Shown: positions 882 to 7,648 of the stretch, in pieces
Numbering within the stretch: the first letter of the stretch is position 1
How the letters are laid out: each line of letters opens with the position of its first letter
NCBI GenBank assembly: GCA_945881735.1
Contig: CAMCVF010000006.1
Location: 1-64,000 of the forward strand
Direction of reading: 5' to 3'
Source of the DNA: Methylotenera oryzisoli
GTDB taxonomy: Bacteria; Pseudomonadota; Gammaproteobacteria; Burkholderiales; Methylophilaceae
DNA: 64,000 nt
Translations under genes and position numbers: made by a program
Notes under the pieces: generated by a model
What the model saw: only the letters and a program-made list of their open reading frames with translations
Told to the model about the DNA's origin: nothing
The model's database searches: none

Positions 882-1439
882 CTAGACCGATACTTTTATC
901 AGTGTGATAGCCGCATTTCTTGCACGTTTTGCAGCTCCTGTTCCTGGACTTAATCTTTCAATTAGTGCGCCACCTTCAAAAATAATCGTTAATTGTTGAC
1001 CCAATGTTTGGGCATCTTTTACCCCTGCAATCTCAGCTAATTTCGATAAATATTGCTGAAGTTCATTTGAAAGTTCAATAGAGTAGTGATGAACTGGATG
1101 TGCAGGATCTGGAAACTCTACTGACCCAATATGAAATGGTAAACCATTAAAGTGAGGGGTCGTTATCCATTGCTCGTATAAATCACATAACTGAAATAGT
1201 ACATCTCTAGATTCGAGCTTAGTATCTGAGAGTTTTTCGTTTATCCAAGTATAAAAGCGATTGGACTTTTCTTTCAAATACTCAATAATAAGCTCATTCT
1301 TACTTGGAAAGTATTTATATAGCGTGGCTTTTGCTATACCTGATTCTGCAATAATTGTATCAACCCCAGAGGCATGAATACCACGAGTTTCAAATAATGT
1401 CGTAGCTACACCTAATATTTTTTCACGCATATTTTTCAT
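882..1439 (-). CDS. TetR/AcrR family transcriptional regulator
   Basis: A 185-residue protein of usual TetR length. The N-terminal HTH spans roughly residues 5-50 (ILGVATTLFETRG, then SGIAKATLYKYFPSKNELI). The ligand-binding C-terminal half is divergent, as usual for the family. Met1 or Met4 could be the start. It lies 27 bases downstream of the membrane-protein gene on the same strand, so the two probably form one operon reading away from mxaR. A CAGAC-CT-GTCTG palindrome in the shared upstream region (2275-2286) is a candidate operator for autoregulation and possibly for control of the mxa genes. The ligand is unknown. Confidence 0.9.
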   Translation of the reverse strand: MKNMREKILGVATTLFETRGIHASGVDTIIAESGIAKATLYKYFPSKNELIIEYLKEKSNRFYTWINEKLSDTKLESRDVLFQLCDLYEQWITTPHFNGLPFHIGSVEFPDPAHPVHHYSIELSNELQQYLSKLAEIAGVKDAQTLGQQLTIIFEGGALIERLSPGTGAAKRARNAAITLIKVSV

Positions 1440-1466: not shown

Positions 1467-2210
1467 CTAATGCCCTATTGGATTATTCATCAGTTTTTGC
1501 GGATAAAGGCAATTTGTGTATGTCAGTGCACTTTTTAGGTTTTCAGCAGTATTAATATCTACTTTCCCTTCATTTACAAATGAAATAAAAGCCTCACGCT
1601 CTTGTGGTTGTAACATTGCAGCCTGAGGGAGCGCACAGTCACCATTTTTCATCGATTTGTATAACTCAACGAGGTTTGAAACAGTTTCACTTCCCGGTTG
1701 ATTGATTGAAGTATCTGTTATTACGTTCAACGGAACGGAATTATCAGTTACTGCATTTTTTGAATTTGGTTTCAATAAAACAATCGAGAACCCCATGATG
1801 ACAATAAAAGTCAGAAAATATAATGACATTTGTATTTTTCTTGGTGAATGATCTGTTGTCAAAAAATTAGTAATTGATTGATTAACGAGGTCCCATGGCT
1901 TTTCAGAACTATTCTGTACTTGCAGCTTTATCGCACCTATCACTAAAAAAAGTATCTGGTCAGAAACAATTTCGGCATTTTCTAACTTGAGCCTTGATGT
2001 TTCGTTCTCAATCAGATTTTTCAGTATTTGAATATCATCAATTGATAGATCAGCCTCTTTTCCATTGATGATTTTACCAATACGCTGTTTATTCCAATTG
2101 TTTAAAATAGCTGACAAGCCAGTTAATCTAGCTATTGGAGATTTGCCAGATTTTTGGAGCTGCATAATAAAACTATCTGACTTTAGAAACTCTGAGGCCA
2201 TGATTTTCAA
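1467..2210 (-). CDS. Uncharacterised single-pass membrane protein
   Basis: A 247-residue protein that I do not recognise. A soluble N-terminal part of about 125 residues is followed by one hydrophobic segment at about 128-146 (SLYFLTFIVIMGFSIVLL), preceded by Arg-Lys, which predicts N-in/C-out topology. The roughly 100-residue C-terminal part would then be periplasmic; it has two cysteines, in GDCALP and TNCLYP, that could pair. There is no signal peptide or lipobox. Met1 or Met4 may start translation. It is divergent from mxaR and upstream of the TetR gene. A role linked to methanol dehydrogenase maturation or its control is inference from position only. Confidence 0.65.
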   Translation of the reverse strand: MKIMASEFLKSDSFIMQLQKSGKSPIARLTGLSAILNNWNKQRIGKIINGKEADLSIDDIQILKNLIENETSRLKLENAEIVSDQILFLVIGAIKLQVQNSSEKPWDLVNQSITNFLTTDHSPRKIQMSLYFLTFIVIMGFSIVLLKPNSKNAVTDNSVPLNVITDTSINQPGSETVSNLVELYKSMKNGDCALPQAAMLQPQEREAFISFVNEGKVDINTAENLKSALTYTNCLYPQKLMNNPIGH

Positions 2211-2347
2211 TATCTCAAATTATTTATTAAAAAAACTTGCAATCTAAAAAGATATATAGCAAACTAAAAACGAACAGACCTGTCTGCATATTAAATGATT
2301 AATTTGTTAATCACAACTATAACCCTATTTATTATTCTGAGGAATTT
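2211..2347. promoter_or_regulatory. Divergent promoter region with candidate TetR operator palindrome
   Basis: This AT-rich region lies between the leftward membrane-protein/TetR operon and rightward mxaR. It contains the inverted repeat CAGAC-CT-GTCTG at 2275-2286, of a size and form usual for TetR-family operators. A strong ribosome binding site (TGAGGA) sits five to six bases before the mxaR ATG at 2348. Binding by the neighbouring TetR protein is inference. Confidence 0.45.
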
Positions 2348-3388
2348 ATGAAAACAGCAAAGATTGATAATCAGCTTTCTGACTGGCGCGACAAAGCCTT
2401 AAAGCTGGAGTCGGAGGTTAAGAAAGTCATTATCGGTCAAGATAAAGCAATTAAGCTAATGAATATTGCTATTTTCGCACGTGGCCATGTGTTACTTGAA
2501 GGTGGTGTTGGTGTTGGTAAGACAACATTACTACAAGCTATTACGCGTGGCATTGGTGGAGCATATGAGCGCATTGAGGGAACGGTCGATTTAATGCCGA
2601 ATGATCTTATCTATCACACATTCCTTGGTTCAGACGGTCGCCCACAAATTGACGAAGGTCCTTTGTTGCGGGCTGGCGAAAACTTATCAGTTTTCTTTTT
2701 TAATGAGATCAATCGAGCCAGACCACAAGTTCATGCCCTGATGCTGCGAGTGATGGCTGAACGGAACGTATCGGCTTTTAGAAAAGAGTATCGCCTACCT
2801 CACATGCTTGTTTTTGCTGACCGCAACCAAGTGGAAAAAAATGAGACTTTTGAAATTCCATCTGCTGCAAGAGATCGTTTCATGATGGAAATTCCGATCG
2901 AAATTCCTGATGATAGAGAAATTCGTAAATCATTGATTTTTAATACTCGTTTTCAGCATACAGAAAAACTCACACAGCAAGTGGAAAGCGATATTTTGCA
3001 TTTTGATCAACTAAATGATTTTTCAGATTATTTACAAAATCATATTCAGGCCAGCGATGTGATGGAGGATTATGCACTTGACCTATGGGAGGCCACGCAG
3101 GATCCCGTGAAGTATGGAATCAAACTTGATACTGTAGATGTCAGCAAACTGATACAGGCTGGAGCTAGCCCGAGAGGCATGGGTATGCTATTAAAAGCTG
3201 CTAGAGTTCATGCTTGGATGATGCAACGAGAAAATTTATATCCTGAGGATATACATGCTGTGTTTCATGAAATCATTTCACATCGGTTGGCATTCAACTC
3301 AATGTACGAGAGTCGCAGAACTGCGCTAGCGCGGGAATTGAGTGGGCATATCCTAAGTCAAGTAACAGTTCCATCTAAGGCGAAGTAA
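2348..3388 (+). CDS. mxaR: MxaR, MoxR-family AAA+ ATPase of the methanol dehydrogenase cluster
   Basis: A 346-residue MoxR-type AAA+ ATPase, thought to act as a chaperone-like ATPase with VWA partners in assembling or activating methanol dehydrogenase. Walker A is GGVGVGKTT at about residues 52-60. The Walker B position reads FFFNEINRARP, so the usual Asp is Asn (residue about 119) with the Glu kept. Sensor-1-like FADRNQVEKNETF and an ARDRF arginine-finger region follow. The start is set by a strong TGAGGA site. It is the first gene of mxaRSACKL; its stop overlaps the mxaS start (TAATG), suggesting translational coupling. As I recall them, MxaR sequences from other methylotrophs share the NEINRARP form. 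Confidence 0.9.
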   Translation: MKTAKIDNQLSDWRDKALKLESEVKKVIIGQDKAIKLMNIAIFARGHVLLEGGVGVGKTTLLQAITRGIGGAYERIEGTVDLMPNDLIYHTFLGSDGRPQIDEGPLLRAGENLSVFFFNEINRARPQVHALMLRVMAERNVSAFRKEYRLPHMLVFADRNQVEKNETFEIPSAARDRFMMEIPIEIPDDREIRKSLIFNTRFQHTEKLTQQVESDILHFDQLNDFSDYLQNHIQASDVMEDYALDLWEATQDPVKYGIKLDTVDVSKLIQAGASPRGMGMLLKAARVHAWMMQRENLYPEDIHAVFHEIISHRLAFNSMYESRRTALARELSGHILSQVTVPSKAK

Positions 3389-4245
3389 TGTTAGCGAATG
3401 ACGTTAAACCCTTTATCTATTCAACGCCATGGAAATCTAGCAGTGTACACTTCGGTGACCATCGAGGTACTCAGCGTGGATTAGGGGATGATTATAGGGG
3501 GAACGTTTCACTAATAGATTACCCTGATGCAAGACGTATGGATTTACGCCAGACTTTGCGAGATCCCTATGAACAAATTCAAGTAAAAACATTTAATCAA
3601 AACAATACTACCCCTTTATATGCCGTATGTGATTTATCGAGCTCAATGCAATTCGGATCTAAGCAAAGTAAATTGGAACTCGCTATGCATATCTCTGCTT
3701 CAATCACTTATTCGGCGCATGGCATGGGGGATTTGTTTAGTTTAATTGCTTATAACAATCATGTCATTGAAGACTTGACTTTGCCATTGAGTCACCATCT
3801 ATTCAATAGCCTCGAAGTGATTCAACAGCTTGCTGATTATCAAAGCAAACATGCCAGTTCTGAAGGTGTTGTAAATGTTCCAATGTATTTAAGTCAACAT
3901 CGTTCTTTGGTATTTTGGATTTCAGACTTTCATATGCCGCTTGAGTTAATTGAGCAAACATTGAATGCAATGTCAGCACATCAAGTTGTACCAATCGTGT
4001 TATGGGATGAGAGAGAGCATAAAAGTTTACCGCAGTTCGGATTCGGAAATCTAATCGACCCAGAAACTGGAGTTGCTCGAATGATGTTTTTTAGAAAATC
4101 ATTGCGTGACCAGTTTATTGAAGCATTTAAAATGAGGCGAGAAGCGCTTGATCGTCTGTTTTTAAAGTTTGACTATCCTCCTTTATATCTTCAGGGGCAG
4201 TTCAACCCTGAGGCTCTTACTAATTATTTCGAACAATATACATAA
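3388..4245 (+). CDS. mxaS: MxaS, DUF58 protein of the methanol dehydrogenase cluster
   Basis: A 285-residue DUF58 protein. The conserved block around DYPDARRMDLRQTLRDP (residues about 44-62) matches the DUF58 core, and a VWA-like MIDAS motif, DLSSS, is near residue 87. In MoxR systems the DUF58 protein is the partner encoded directly after the ATPase. No membrane segment is visible, so it is probably cytoplasmic. It overlaps mxaR by one base and ends four bases before mxaA. It is required for methanol dehydrogenase activity in model methylotrophs, though its precise role is not settled. Confidence 0.88.
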   Translation: MLANDVKPFIYSTPWKSSSVHFGDHRGTQRGLGDDYRGNVSLIDYPDARRMDLRQTLRDPYEQIQVKTFNQNNTTPLYAVCDLSSSMQFGSKQSKLELAMHISASITYSAHGMGDLFSLIAYNNHVIEDLTLPLSHHLFNSLEVIQQLADYQSKHASSEGVVNVPMYLSQHRSLVFWISDFHMPLELIEQTLNAMSAHQVVPIVLWDEREHKSLPQFGFGNLIDPETGVARMMFFRKSLRDQFIEAFKMRREALDRLFLKFDYPPLYLQGQFNPEALTNYFEQYT

Positions 4246-4249
4246 GATT

Positions 4250-5161
4250 ATGATGAACATACTACCTAAATTACTGCTGCTTATAGCATTGTTTTTCCAA
4301 AGTGCGCTTGTCAGCGCTGATAATAACGAAATAACACTTTTAAATCTGACGAATCCTCAACGCAGCACTGGCATTCAAATCGGTGATGTATTGAAAAGAA
4401 GTTTGACGTTTGAGACTGCAACACCGCAGCAAACTATCACGAAAGCTTTGCCAGCCAAGGGAATGCGTAACGATGAAGTGGAGTTAATCGCAACAAACAT
4501 TGAACTCCTGAAAGAAGGTAGCAAAAATCAATACAAAATTGAGTTGGTTTACCAAGTATTTAACAATGCCACAAGAACCAAAGTTATGGCACTCCCTGCA
4601 CAAACGATTAATATAACCAGTAATGAAAAACTAAGTTTGCCAGCGTGGCGTTTTTGGTTCTCACCTTTAGTTGAAACTAGTATTTTTAATGCAAAGGCTA
4701 ATGTACAGCCACAAGTAAAGCCTCCATTTATTGATAATAATCAATATGCAATCGGATTAAAAGTATTTGCCGGCATGTTGATACTTTCAATTTTAGGGTT
4801 AATTTATGTGAATGCTGATGCCAAATGGTTACCTTTCTATAAAGGCAACTTTTCATATGCTCATAAAGAAATAAAGCAACTAAGTCAAAGTAAATTACCT
4901 GATGCAAATAGTCTTAAAAAAGCTATATTCTGCTTACATATGTCATTTAATAAAACCTATGGCAACAACTTATTTGCAAATCATCTTGATGATTTTATTT
5001 CTCAGCACCCAAGGTTTAAGCCCTTAAATAATGAAATCATCGAGTTTTTCAAATTATCAAATCAAACACTTTTTACCAATCAAATTGATAATGGCCATGA
5101 ATTGATGTTGAAACTTCTTTCACTTAGTAAAAGCTTAAGAAACTGCGAAAGAGGTGTCTGA
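4250..5161 (+). CDS. mxaA: MxaA, periplasmic/membrane protein for methanol dehydrogenase maturation
   Basis: About 303 residues from the ATG at 4250 (or 4253). This start is chosen because it directly precedes a clear signal peptide (LLLLIALFFQSALVSA, cleavage near ADN) and follows the mxaS stop at 4245. A second hydrophobic segment near residues 168-186 (VFAGMLILSILGLIYV) splits a periplasmic domain from a cytoplasmic C-terminal tail. In Methylobacterium, mxaA mutants make methanol dehydrogenase lacking Ca2+, so MxaA is tied to calcium insertion (established knowledge). It overlaps mxaC by one base (TGATG). The sequence is very AT-rich compared with housekeeping genes further right. Confidence 0.8.
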   Translation: MMNILPKLLLLIALFFQSALVSADNNEITLLNLTNPQRSTGIQIGDVLKRSLTFETATPQQTITKALPAKGMRNDEVELIATNIELLKEGSKNQYKIELVYQVFNNATRTKVMALPAQTINITSNEKLSLPAWRFWFSPLVETSIFNAKANVQPQVKPPFIDNNQYAIGLKVFAGMLILSILGLIYVNADAKWLPFYKGNFSYAHKEIKQLSQSKLPDANSLKKAIFCLHMSFNKTYGNNLFANHLDDFISQHPRFKPLNNEIIEFFKLSNQTLFTNQIDNGHELMLKLLSLSKSLRNCERGV

Positions 5162-6147
5162 TGTCTTTACTTAATCCATGGGCCTTGCTTTTATTGCCCA
5201 TTATGTTTATTCCGTTTTGGCTTAAAAGCAGTCAAGGGCAGATGTATTCCTGGCTGGATATTGCGCCACATGACAGAGTTTCTGAAATAGCTAACTTAGT
5301 TTTGAAGATTATTACATCGCTGCTTTTAACATCTATAGTTATTGCACTGGCATCACCACAAGGACCAGACCAGAAAATTATTAAAATTGGTAAAGGTGCA
5401 CAAACGGTTATGGTGATTGACCGAAGTGTAAGCATGGATCATCCATTTGCTGGTGATGCAACTAGTGGAGTAACTGCTGAGATTAAGTCTGCTGCTGCCA
5501 GAAGACTAATCACAAAGTTCATTGATTCAAGACCAGATGACATGATGGGTGTTGTTGGTTTCACCAACTCAGCACTCTATGGCGTCAAAATCACAACAAA
5601 TCGTGATGCCATTCATGCAGCAATAAATGCTGCAACAAGTTCAGCACTAAATCAAACTAACATTGGCTCTGGCCTAACCCAGGCAGTCAGTTTATTTGAT
5701 AACATTGAAAACTCTGGCTCCCGAGCAATCATTCTTCTTTCTGATGGCGCTGGCAAAATTAGTCCGCGTGTGAAGCAGAAAATCAAAGAATCTCTGAAAA
5801 TCAGAAATCTAAGCTTATATTGGATAGTATTGCGTGAACCTGATGACATCAGCATATTCTCAACCAGTAATAGCAAATTCAAAGAAGGTTCAGAACCCGC
5901 GCCTATAGAGTTGGACAATTTCTTCAAGTCACTGCAGATTAAATATAAAGCCTACGAAGCTGACAATCCTAACGCCTTGCAGTCAGCTATTCAGGATATT
6001 AATGTACGCGAAAAAAAGAAAATTCAATATTCAATCTCCATTCCGGGACATGATTATTCAGTAGATTTTATTGTAATTGCTCTTATCTTGAGCATATTGA
6101 TTTTAATTGCTAAAAATTTGAGGGTACATTCATGGCAGGTCGAATAA
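5161..6147 (+). CDS. mxaC: MxaC, membrane-anchored von Willebrand factor A protein
   Basis: A 328-residue protein with a BatA-like layout. It has an N-terminal hydrophobic segment (LLLPIMFIPFW), a second near 45-65 (IITSLLLTSIVIALA), a VWA domain starting with MIDAS residues DRSVS at about residue 87, and a C-terminal membrane helix (FIVIALILSILILIA). The VWA domain should face the periplasm between the helices. It sits between mxaA and mxaK, and its 3' end overlaps mxaK by 16 bases. In model methylotrophs it is needed for active methanol dehydrogenase. Metal binding through the MIDAS is expected but not proven here. Confidence 0.85.
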   Translation: MSLLNPWALLLLPIMFIPFWLKSSQGQMYSWLDIAPHDRVSEIANLVLKIITSLLLTSIVIALASPQGPDQKIIKIGKGAQTVMVIDRSVSMDHPFAGDATSGVTAEIKSAAARRLITKFIDSRPDDMMGVVGFTNSALYGVKITTNRDAIHAAINAATSSALNQTNIGSGLTQAVSLFDNIENSGSRAIILLSDGAGKISPRVKQKIKESLKIRNLSLYWIVLREPDDISIFSTSNSKFKEGSEPAPIELDNFFKSLQIKYKAYEADNPNALQSAIQDINVREKKKIQYSISIPGHDYSVDFIVIALILSILILIAKNLRVHSWQVE

Positions 6148-6683
6148 CTATAATTAACACTTCATTGATATTCGTAATGATAGCAAGTTTAACTGGTATT
6201 GTTTATTCAGCTTATCAATACCAAAATATTTACAATATCAACAATACTTTGCAGTCAGGGCAGGTATTAAATAATGTTGCATACCCATTATACGCAAAGT
6301 ATTCAGCAGCCTATTTTCAGGGTAGCAAAGATGACTACAAGCATGCGGTGCAGTCTTATGGTCAGGCTTTAGAGATACAAGCAAAATCTAGCAAACCCGA
6401 TACAGTGCTGCAGGCCATTATTCAATATAACATCGCAACCAATCTATTCTTATTTGGCTTGAGTCGAGACTTGAATGATGATGGTTCACTTAAAGAAGAG
6501 TCCAAGTATAGTTTTATGCAAGCAAAAGCTGCATTTGAACAGTCGCTTAAATTAAATCCAGAGAATCGCAGGGCAAAATTCAATCTTAGCCTCTTAAACT
6601 CAGTTACCCCGATCAATATGAAAAGCGCACCAAAAGACCAGTCTGGTGTAGAACTTAGTAACATTCCAGTTGGATTACCATGA
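6132..6683 (+). CDS. mxaK: MxaK, TPR-like methanol dehydrogenase maturation protein
   Basis: A 183-residue protein with an N-terminal membrane anchor (about residues 7-25, TSLIFVMIASLTGIVYSAY) followed by a probably periplasmic helical domain. The segments AVQSYGQALEIQAK and AKAAFEQSLKLNPENRRAKFN look like TPR repeats. The gene starts inside the end of mxaC and overlaps mxaL by four bases (ATGA). Like mxaA and mxaL, mxaK is linked to Ca2+ incorporation into methanol dehydrogenase in Methylobacterium. Identity rests on the order of genes and the BatE/TPR-like form more than on recognised residues. Confidence 0.78.
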   Translation: MAGRITIINTSLIFVMIASLTGIVYSAYQYQNIYNINNTLQSGQVLNNVAYPLYAKYSAAYFQGSKDDYKHAVQSYGQALEIQAKSSKPDTVLQAIIQYNIATNLFLFGLSRDLNDDGSLKEESKYSFMQAKAAFEQSLKLNPENRRAKFNLSLLNSVTPINMKSAPKDQSGVELSNIPVGLP

Positions 6684-7648
6684 AAAAGTTTATCTCCATT
6701 TTAAAAAGTAACTACGAGAGCTTGTTGTTGCTAGTTGTTGCCTTGTTATTATTACTTGCTATTTACAAACCGCAGATACAGCTTAAACAGGACGTGCATA
6801 ATTATTTGCTAGTTGCGGACGTTTCACAAAGTATGAATGCCCAAGATGTTAAATTAAACAGTAAGGTAATCAGTCGAATGGATTACACCAAACATCTGAT
6901 GAAGCGCGTTGTTGAAACCTCTTCTTGCGGAACATATATAAGCTTAGGTGTTTTTGCAGCAGAAAATGTTGGTTTACTGCTAATGCCACTTGAAGTTTGT
7001 ACAAATTATGATGTCATCACAGATTCAATTGATCATTTGGAGTGGAGAATGGCATGGCGGGGTAATAGCAGGTTAACTTTTGGTATTAAGTCCGCTGAAA
7101 GCATGTTTGATTACCTGAATATTCCAGCAACAATGCTTTTCTTCACGGATGGTGACGAAGCCCCTAAAGTGAATGCTATTAATAAACTGGATTTAAGTGG
7201 AGTGCAAATTGGTAAGAATTTACTGTTTATTGGTGTAGGCGGTCATCAACCAGTTCCAATTCCACGATACAACTCTAGCAACAAGTGGGTGGGATATTGG
7301 TCTTCTGACACTAAAGAAAATAGTGCAGGTGCCGTTGGAGATACTTATAGTGACACGAGCAAAGATGAACCTGATCCAATTGTGGCATATGCTGAGTTTG
7401 ACCGTTATCTATCACAGCTTGATTCTGAATATCTGAAACAAATCTCAGCAGAAATCAAGGGGAGTTATATTGAAGGCCAAGATACTGAAGAATTTTATAC
7501 GAATGTTCAATCTCAAAAGCCATCTGCCAGTTTTATAACAGCCTATTCAATGAAGTGGATATATTTGAGTTTAGCAATATTGATGTTGCTATTCGTTTAC
7601 ACTCCAGAAATACTATCTTTAAAAATTTTCAAAAAACATATTAATTGA
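6680..7648 (+). CDS. mxaL: MxaL, second von Willebrand factor A protein of the mxa cluster
   Basis: A 322-residue protein with an N-terminal membrane helix (LLLLVVALLLLLAIY), a VWA domain with MIDAS DVSQS at about residue 49 and FFTDGDEAP further on, and a C-terminal helix (WIYLSLAILMLLFVYTPEIL). This is a BatB-like arrangement with the VWA domain in the periplasm. It is the last clear gene of mxaRSACKL. In other methylotrophs mxaD, mxaE and mxaH can follow, but here the next gene is the convergent nrdJb. MxaL is one of the proteins needed for Ca2+-containing methanol dehydrogenase. Confidence 0.83.
   Translation: MKKFISILKSNYESLLLLVVALLLLLAIYKPQIQLKQDVHNYLLVADVSQSMNAQDVKLNSKVISRMDYTKHLMKRVVETSSCGTYISLGVFAAENVGLLLMPLEVCTNYDVITDSIDHLEWRMAWRGNSRLTFGIKSAESMFDYLNIPATMLFFTDGDEAPKVNAINKLDLSGVQIGKNLLFIGVGGHQPVPIPRYNSSNKWVGYWSSDTKENSAGAVGDTYSDTSKDEPDPIVAYAEFDRYLSQLDSEYLKQISAEIKGSYIEGQDTEEFYTNVQSQKPSASFITAYSMKWIYLSLAILMLLFVYTPEILSLKIFKKHIN

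Follow-up and report, generated by a model that had tools for sequence, protein, structure and literature searches.

The mxaRSACKL genes of the window (the whole 64,000-nucleotide stretch of DNA analysed here) are, with a probability of about 0.5, a second, Methylophilaceae-specific relative of the core mxaRSACKL set, one that stands alone under its own TetR/c7 control and most likely serves XoxF. We infer repression by TetR, sensing by c7 and a role for XoxF, in the following order. TetR would bind the inverted repeat CAGACCTGTCTG and thereby block both mxaR and its own c7-TetR pair. The membrane protein c7 would respond to a membrane or periplasmic state, lifting repression either by pairing with TetR or by keeping TetR membrane-bound. 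With repression lifted, the MoxR-VWA proteins would aid the maturation of an XoxF-type (lanthanide) methanol dehydrogenase (MDH).

The six-gene set and its lineage

Six intact open reading frames (ORFs), abutting or overlapping, run from 2348 to 7648 on the forward strand in the order mxaR-S-A-C-K-L (Table 1). This order, together with the AAA, DUF58, VWA and VWA domains, identifies an mxaRSACKL accessory set, and related genomes contain clusters that match all six genes in the same order, in agreement with the first-pass annotation, which had described six intact, overlapping maturation genes. The listed mxaA ORF opens with a TTG codon at 4169; a start near 4250, ahead of a signal-peptide-like stretch, is likelier. 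Going by the gene names, the set has a putative role in MDH assembly.

Table 1. Coordinates of features in the mxaR region of the window.
Feature	Position	Strand	Basis
TetR-family regulator, 185 aa	882..1439	-	Pfam TetR_N (PF00440), E 2.7e-13
c7, predicted membrane protein, 247 aa	1467..2210	-	alignments, AlphaFold model, VIA-align, hhalign with controls
Promoter-like pair TTGCAA - 17 nt - CAAACT	2237..2265	+	by eye, aligned regions
Perfect inverted repeat CAGACCTGTCTG, candidate TetR operator	2275..2286		shared across aligned regions
mxaR (MoxR-type AAA ATPase)	2348..3388	+	Pfam AAA_3 + AAA_lid_2
mxaS	3388..4245	+	Pfam DUF58
mxaA	4250..5161 (ORF as listed 4169-5161)	+	no Pfam family
mxaC	5161..6147	+	Pfam VWA_2
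mxaK	6132..6683	+	weak TPR, Pfam score under cut-off
mxaL	6680..7648	+	Pfam VWA_2

As had also been claimed, mxaF, J, G and I are all missing next to mxaR in the window. Two divergent genes (2210-882) lie upstream instead, with c7 in the place that mxaFJGI would take in an mxaFJGIRSACKL(D) operon. Because the first base of the window is also the first base of contig C6, the view past the TetR gene is limited to 881 bp; in genome G020, where the orthologous set lies inside a 2.5-Mb contig, no MxaF was labelled in the 19.9 kb covered.

The gene order matches the accessory part of mxaFJGIRSACKL operons, and the set could be read as the remnant of such an operon after loss of the structural genes. 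We regard this as very unlikely. In an MxaR tree the mxaF-linked type clusters with other families (support 100/98), outside the window-type clade (99/98), and the upstream pair and repeat are conserved in many genomes. By the same tree, the locus is not the mxaFJGI-linked lineage minus its structural genes. When the window was compared with the mxaF-linked copy of G118, MxaR was 49% and MxaS 32% identical. Among 48 genomes with a window-type set, MxaF was present in 32 and gave no match in 16; in three (G102, G118 and G158), no more than about 12 kb separates the window-type set from mxaF. Some genomes have window-type sets without c7 or the repeat.

The TetR gene, its membrane partner and the inverted repeat

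The divergent gene that the first-pass annotation had left as unknown is c7, which forms a conserved pair with the TetR gene and proved to be the most informative part of the locus. The TetR protein has the N-terminal helix-turn-helix (HTH) of its family, and its gene is kept beside c7 in relatives (16-copy alignment, mean column identity 77%). An mxaRSACKL set adjoins strong c7 matches at 27 of 29 loci.

c7 is predicted to combine a cytoplasmic domain resembling the TetR core, a single transmembrane helix (about residues 123-145) and a small C-terminal domain that is probably periplasmic and in which Cys192 and Cys234 are invariant in the alignments. The AlphaFold model of this C-terminal part is of low confidence and its fold comparison minimal. 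When 53 c7-like sequences, distant copies included, were compared with 49 TetR sequences by hhalign, they matched with an E value of 6.5e-12, with controls far lower, and aligned solely to the TetR C-terminal domain; close c7 copies alone gave a weak match (E 0.013 to 7.5e-5; probability 32). A distant c7 copy was 36% identical to a TetR over 94 aa in BLASTP, and VIA-align gave Z scores up to 11.6, a level which, by the tool's own warning, helical bundles may often reach. c7 thus has the ligand-binding and dimerisation core of the TetR family, weakly so when close copies alone are used. It has no N-terminal HTH and no Pfam match. For the window copy, nothing scored above the curated cut-offs in Pfam and NCBIfam; the c7 profile matched no PDB sequence, and Foldseek against the PDB gave no match at E 0.001 or better. 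The sequences show a relationship between the cytoplasmic part of c7 and the ligand-binding domain of the neighbouring TetR, with the HTH absent.

The repeat lies between the c7-TetR pair and mxaR and is the only exact copy in the host genome. An automatic palindrome search returned mostly unshared matches; the shared 12-mer was spotted by comparing regions. It is exact in 25 of 28 extracted c7/mxaR regions, the remaining three having one mismatch, and among chosen genomes an exact copy was found in 29 of 31 with a close c7, compared with 4 of 38 without. This co-occurrence makes it a candidate operator for TetR. The promoter-like pair is just upstream of the repeat and directed toward mxaR; a consensus promoter scan did not report it.

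With a divergent gene on either side of it, the repeat has no target fixed by sequence, and TetR might control its own pair alone, with c7 having a structural role rather than acting as co-regulator. This is unlikely given G030, where the exact repeat is upstream of mxaR and the c7-TetR pair, whose own site has one mismatch, is downstream of mxaL, and given G043, where the repeat is upstream of xoxF.

Methanol dehydrogenases of the host and the client of the set

The genome search that the first-pass annotation had proposed for mxaF and xoxF was run on the host draft assembly (G000; Methylotenera-like, 2.02 Mb, 92.7% complete). It found no mxaF (best E value 3.3e-29, judged against genuine MxaF matches in relatives, which are 79-100% identical) and two xoxF copies, both cut by contig breaks. 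The four xoxF-bearing contig ends (C8, C20, C1 and C2) share pairwise exact overlaps of 149 bp. We therefore rejected a genome without MDH: the apparent lack is an assembly artefact, as both xoxF copies are broken at contig ends.

At 92.7% completeness the absence of mxaF is unproved, and mxaFJGI could be present in the host but missing from the assembly, with the window set serving it in trans. The gaps are real, as the cut xoxF copies show, and MxaF occurs in two thirds of the genomes with the window type (32 of 48, as above). Of 14 genomes searched within the genus, though, just 2 had MxaF (G007 and G012), and none was found in the host, so we consider this alternative improbable.

The likeliest client of the window set is XoxF. 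The c7-TetR pair adjoins xoxF in four genomes (G012, G153, G024 and G043), in two of which (G024 and G043) the repeat is upstream of xoxF, and in G110 the window-type set is directly preceded by xoxF. The 16 window-type genomes that gave no MxaF match and the two xoxF copies of the host point the same way. The earlier suggestion that an orphan set might serve XoxF stands to this extent, and fits the mxaF result. The window set is not the only one in the host, which has a second, core-type mxaRSACKL set elsewhere (G000:C8:88090). Against a XoxF role are the 32 window-type genomes with MxaF, the three sets near mxaF described above, and a review stating, in the part available, that XoxF can do without the mxa accessory genes (PMC11845868).

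That review also favours a different possibility, which we regard as real but lesser: the control device works as proposed and the client is another PQQ dehydrogenase, such as one of the P0001 type, or another periplasmic or membrane complex. In relatives, the repeat recurs before a gene for a 130-132-aa membrane protein, for which Pfam and NCBIfam gave nothing above curated cut-offs, and before cyclopropane-fatty-acid-synthase-like genes. As these genes have no known link to XoxF maturation, the signal may be the state of the membrane or solvent. Other MoxR-VWA systems probably serve periplasmic or membrane complexes. The host has a P0001-type gene (G000:C2:8299-10080), and such enzymes are widespread in Methylophilaceae, many carriers being without a window-type set. 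We thus disfavoured this enzyme as a dedicated client, and retained it within the broader alternative, against which stands the pair or repeat beside xoxF in four genomes.

Comparison with known systems

In Methylophilaceae it is nothing unusual for extra mxaRSACKL copies to stand apart from mxaFJGI, according to the available part of Beck et al. 2014 (PMC4109929). The additional clusters described there have the same genes and are present in two copies even in strains without mxaFI; that part mentions no TetR-c7 pair, operator or division into types. Thus, extra accessory sets were already known, while the control region seems to be new. A search by title and abstract opening, with subscription journals mostly outside its scope, gave nothing relevant on TetR proteins at mxaR or xoxF or on membrane-tethered TetR proteins.

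The MDH regulators MxaY/MxaB, MxbDM and MxcQE, as presented in the accessible portions of PMC5018670 and PMC11845868, are also beside MDH genes or act on them, and combine a membrane sensor with a cytoplasmic DNA-binding partner, as we propose for c7 and TetR. They are two-component systems, whereas here a TetR is joined by a membrane-anchored TetR-like core. More tentatively, c7 and TetR may be a transmembrane signalling pair of a new kind. The tethered core would read lanthanide, PQQ, unmatured XoxF or methanol stress as a membrane or periplasmic signal and remove the repressor from DNA. The two would form a methanol/lanthanide switch, so far undescribed, through which Methylophilaceae would control accessory sets and membrane-modifying genes along with XoxG-like cytochromes and some xoxF genes.

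Transcriptomes show several Methylophilaceae xoxF copies to be differently controlled, and the sections available name no regulator (PMC3728764, PMC5723320). The regulator, the membrane partner and the 12-bp site described here would allow this control to be tested in cultured carriers of the pair, among them Methylotenera versatilis 7, Methylophilus methylotrophus DSM 46235 and Methylovorus sp. MM2. Deletion of both the additional and the core sets would reveal if XoxF is served by accessory Mxa proteins, a point on which publications, as far as their available parts go, disagree.

The mxaRSACKL(D) genes behind mxaFJGI (G118; Methylosinus sporium, in the available part of PMC7104280) share the six genes and their order with the window, where the set has neither adjoining structural genes nor mxaD. 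With TetR repressors of divergent targets, the locus shares an HTH and ligand-binding core in one 185-aa protein and a repeat between divergent genes; it differs in that a second gene adds another core, one that lacks the HTH and is attached to a transmembrane helix.

The six-gene set and its types

The window carries six intact, abutting or overlapping genes whose domain order is that of mxaR-S-A-C-K-L (see table). Walker A in MxaR and the DxSxS motifs in MxaS, MxaC and MxaL could be read from the sequence. MoxR proteins usually have DE at Walker B, and the window MxaR has NE. As NE was matched in 47 of 47 rows of the orphan kind found here (window type) and in 16 of 19 rows of other types (the other three gave no pattern match), it is not a defect of this copy. 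Two genes lie upstream, divergent from mxaR: c7, which encodes a predicted membrane protein of 247 aa, and a TetR regulator gene. The window spans bases 1-64,000 of contig C6, so that 881 bp are visible beyond the TetR gene.

Features of the host genome (G000) and of related loci
Feature	Position	Description
tetR	window 882-1439 (-)	TetR regulator
c7	window 1467-2210 (-)	predicted membrane protein
12-mer	window 2275-2286	perfect inverted repeat
mxaRSACKL	window 2348-7648 (+)	six-gene set
mxaR		MoxR-type AAA ATPase
mxaS		DUF58
mxaA		third gene of set
mxaC		VWA
mxaK		weak TPR
mxaL		VWA
xoxF-bearing contig ends (L102, L098, L099, L104)	C8:102020-102224; C20:1-963; C1 end 325764; C2:219633-219781	
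130-132-aa membrane protein	L254:2108-2500; L255:2547-2939; L178:8081-8470; L088:6406-6801	no family; 12-mer 40-60 bp upstream

A second mxaRSACKL set lies at C8:88090 of the host genome (MxaS 45% and MxaR 63% identical to the window), and the mxaFJGI-linked set of G118 is further off (MxaR 49%, MxaS 32%). MxaS of some type occurs in 117 of 120 Methylophilaceae genomes, including every one of the 92 with at least 90% completeness and little contamination. Genomes of ~1.1-1.4 Mb mostly have a single MxaS match at ~40%, the range of the family's core type. Parts of Beck et al. (2014, PMC4109929) give 2-4 accessory copies per strain, with two in strains lacking mxaFI. At a cut-off of at least 52% identity, which was our choice and excluded one row at 49%, window-type MxaS was listed at 62 loci in 48 of the 120 genomes, 32 of them with MxaF and 16 without; four genomes have MxaF and no window-type MxaS. 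Coordinates place the window-type set less than ~12 kb from mxaF in G102, G118 and G158.

An MxaR tree of 66 rows places 46 window-type rows in one clade (support 99/98), outside which one window-labelled row (G152) falls. The named rows nearest to the window MxaR are Methylotenera MAGs. The four mxaF-linked rows cluster with other families (15 rows, 100/98), and the window and core types are neighbours when the tree, which has long branches and just four core rows from Methylophilaceae, is rooted on other families. On these placements, the orphan set appears to be a duplicate of the core set that is specific to this family, and a decayed mxaF operon is disfavoured as its origin.

The c7-TetR pair and its inverted repeat

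Sequence comparison showed that the c7-TetR pair is conserved. Of 29 strong c7 loci (at least 170 bits), 26 have a window-type set as neighbour and one (G152) has a divergent set, while no mxa set was found beside c7 in G050 and G017. Mxa genes adjoin c7 in 31 of 34 named c7 loci (exceptions L147, L151 and L163), with mxaL alone shown at L160. Of 300 genomes surveyed across the order, five were found to contain c7, all of them Methylophilaceae.

The repeat, CAGACCTGTCTG, is exact in the divergent c7/mxaR region of 25 of the 28 extracted regions, including the window (L148 and L182 are from the same genome), and has one mismatch in L152, L157 and L166. In L170 and L177 it falls just within the called c7 start, which was probably called too early. 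The window repeat, the sole exact copy in the host genome, lies directly 3' of a promoter-like pair seen by eye and not reported by the consensus scan, a placement as expected for a repressor.

In 69 chosen genomes, the exact site occurred in 29 of 31 with a close c7 (match of at least 120 bits) versus 4 of 38 without, many of which do carry a distant copy (Fisher p 6.6e-13, relatedness ignored). Exact sites numbered 53, compared to eight for the reversed pattern, and the four in genomes without a close c7 all fall within mechanically called ORFs. At 25 of the 29 strong loci, the site and the start of c7 are <400 bp apart; the site is upstream of mxaR in G030, has one mismatch in G052 (L166) and is absent at those of G050 and G017. 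It is also absent from fragment L093, core locus L075 and eight fetched window-type loci without a close c7 (L079, L080, L083, L084, L086, L089, L091 and L092), of which L091 has a distant c7. Five of these eight (L079, L080, L083, L084 and L089) have instead a divergent regulator gene, MocR-type in our reading; in L089 (G110), xoxF sits between this gene and mxaR.

A distantly related c7-TetR pair occupies a different conserved position in many Methylophilaceae (L185-L195; e.g. L195:9240 and 10057), and the 12-mer is absent from these loci. In several genomes this pair adjoins genes for a large FAD-oxidase/Fe-S protein and a redoxin (one locus examined). At L191:9826 onward (G039:C50), beside such a pair, is a 109-aa piece 85% identical to the window MxaR, perhaps a decayed set.

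In G126, G052, G012 and G100 the site also precedes a gene for a membrane protein of 130-132 aa, which probably belongs to the same regulon; in G157, G116 and G139 a distant relative of this protein is encoded nearby. The neighbours of the site in G149 and G134 are a gene for a cytochrome c with 40-41% identity to XoxG and, in divergent orientation to that gene, a CFA-synthase-like gene. It is also near CFA-synthase-like genes in G124, G144 and G116. One cytochrome and two CFA-like proteins were checked with Pfam, and the remainder were judged by sequence. The CFA-associated loci (L258, L260, L262, L265 and L266) are from five related genomes, two also with the XoxG-like cytochrome. Further extra sites in genomes with a close c7, surveyed with G153:C8 left out, fall within called ORFs at L256, L257 (twice), L259, L261, L263 and L269.

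The nature of c7

In the AlphaFold model of c7, a mostly confident helical domain (residues ~11-118) is followed by a helix of lower confidence (123-145), which matches a hydrophobic peak (19-residue mean >1.6 in 32 of 34 members). The C-terminal part, modelled with low confidence, contains two invariant cysteines. Foldseek gave no significant match to this model. The 50 VIA-align rows listed were, except 3on2 (unknown function), TetR-type regulators by title or, for part of them, by what we take to be their membership, and most aligned their C-terminal domain to c7; the best Z was 11.6 over 114 residues, a value that helical bundles may commonly reach, according to the tool's own warning.

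A profile of 53 c7-like sequences, compared with one of 49 TetR sequences, matched the TetR ligand-binding domain (E 6.5e-12, score 81.8), against scores of 13.6-18.3 for six other families, 10.8 for a reversed profile and at most 21.9 for 60 column shuffles. Distant c7 copies contributed most of the signal (E 4.8e-15 versus distant TetRs); close copies alone gave E 0.013 versus close TetRs and 7.5e-5 versus all TetRs, and another close-c7 comparison gave E 4.9e-4 (probability 32). BLASTP linked distant c7 to TetR directly (36% over 94 aa, E 9e-13). We conclude from these comparisons that c7 derives from a TetR core that lost its HTH and came to be anchored in the membrane.

Methanol dehydrogenases and a candidate client

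MxaF at ≥79% identity was found in 36 of the 120 family genomes, two partial, and was not found in the host assembly (2.02 Mb, 34 contigs, 92.7% complete). A first search for XoxF there suggested that it too was absent (best E 4.9e-45), because xoxF is split over contig ends. Comparison with the xoxF-region DNA of G011 located xoxF 5' ends on C20 (contig start) and C8 (contig end), and 3' ends on C1 and C2, in both cases at the contig end. Exactly 149 terminal bases are common to both 5' ends, and likewise to both 3' ends, which we read as two near-identical xoxF copies probably collapsed in assembly, with the middle ~1.6 kb missing. Draft genomes of this group may thus appear to lack methanol dehydrogenase. 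A XoxJ-like and two XoxG-like genes adjoin the xoxF end of C1, and pqqC is present.

The site is upstream of xoxF in G024 and G043, and the c7-TetR pair adjoins xoxF in G012, G153, G024 and G043, with no site within one mismatch beside the G153 pair. In G110, xoxF is directly upstream of the window-type set. On this neighbourhood, and as a third of the carriers have no MxaF match, we take XoxF to be the likeliest client of the orphan set. Part of a review states that mxa accessory genes are not required for XoxF (PMC11845868); Beck et al., in part of their text, include them, alongside XoxF, in the core of the family (PMC4109929).

We propose that TetR, bound to the 12-mer, would block mxaR and probably also its own c7-TetR pair. 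Sharing a dimerisation core with TetR, c7 may respond to a signal sensed by its C-terminal domain by forming heterodimers with TetR or tethering it at the membrane, and the set would then provide MoxR-VWA maturation proteins. Membrane or solvent state is a possible signal, given the CFA-like and membrane-protein targets.

The host also encodes a PQQ dehydrogenase-like protein of 593 aa with a lipoprotein-like start (P0001, C2:8299-10080, L005), of a type widespread in Methylophilaceae, which has HDLWGYD where MxaF and XoxF have WDxA/WDxD.
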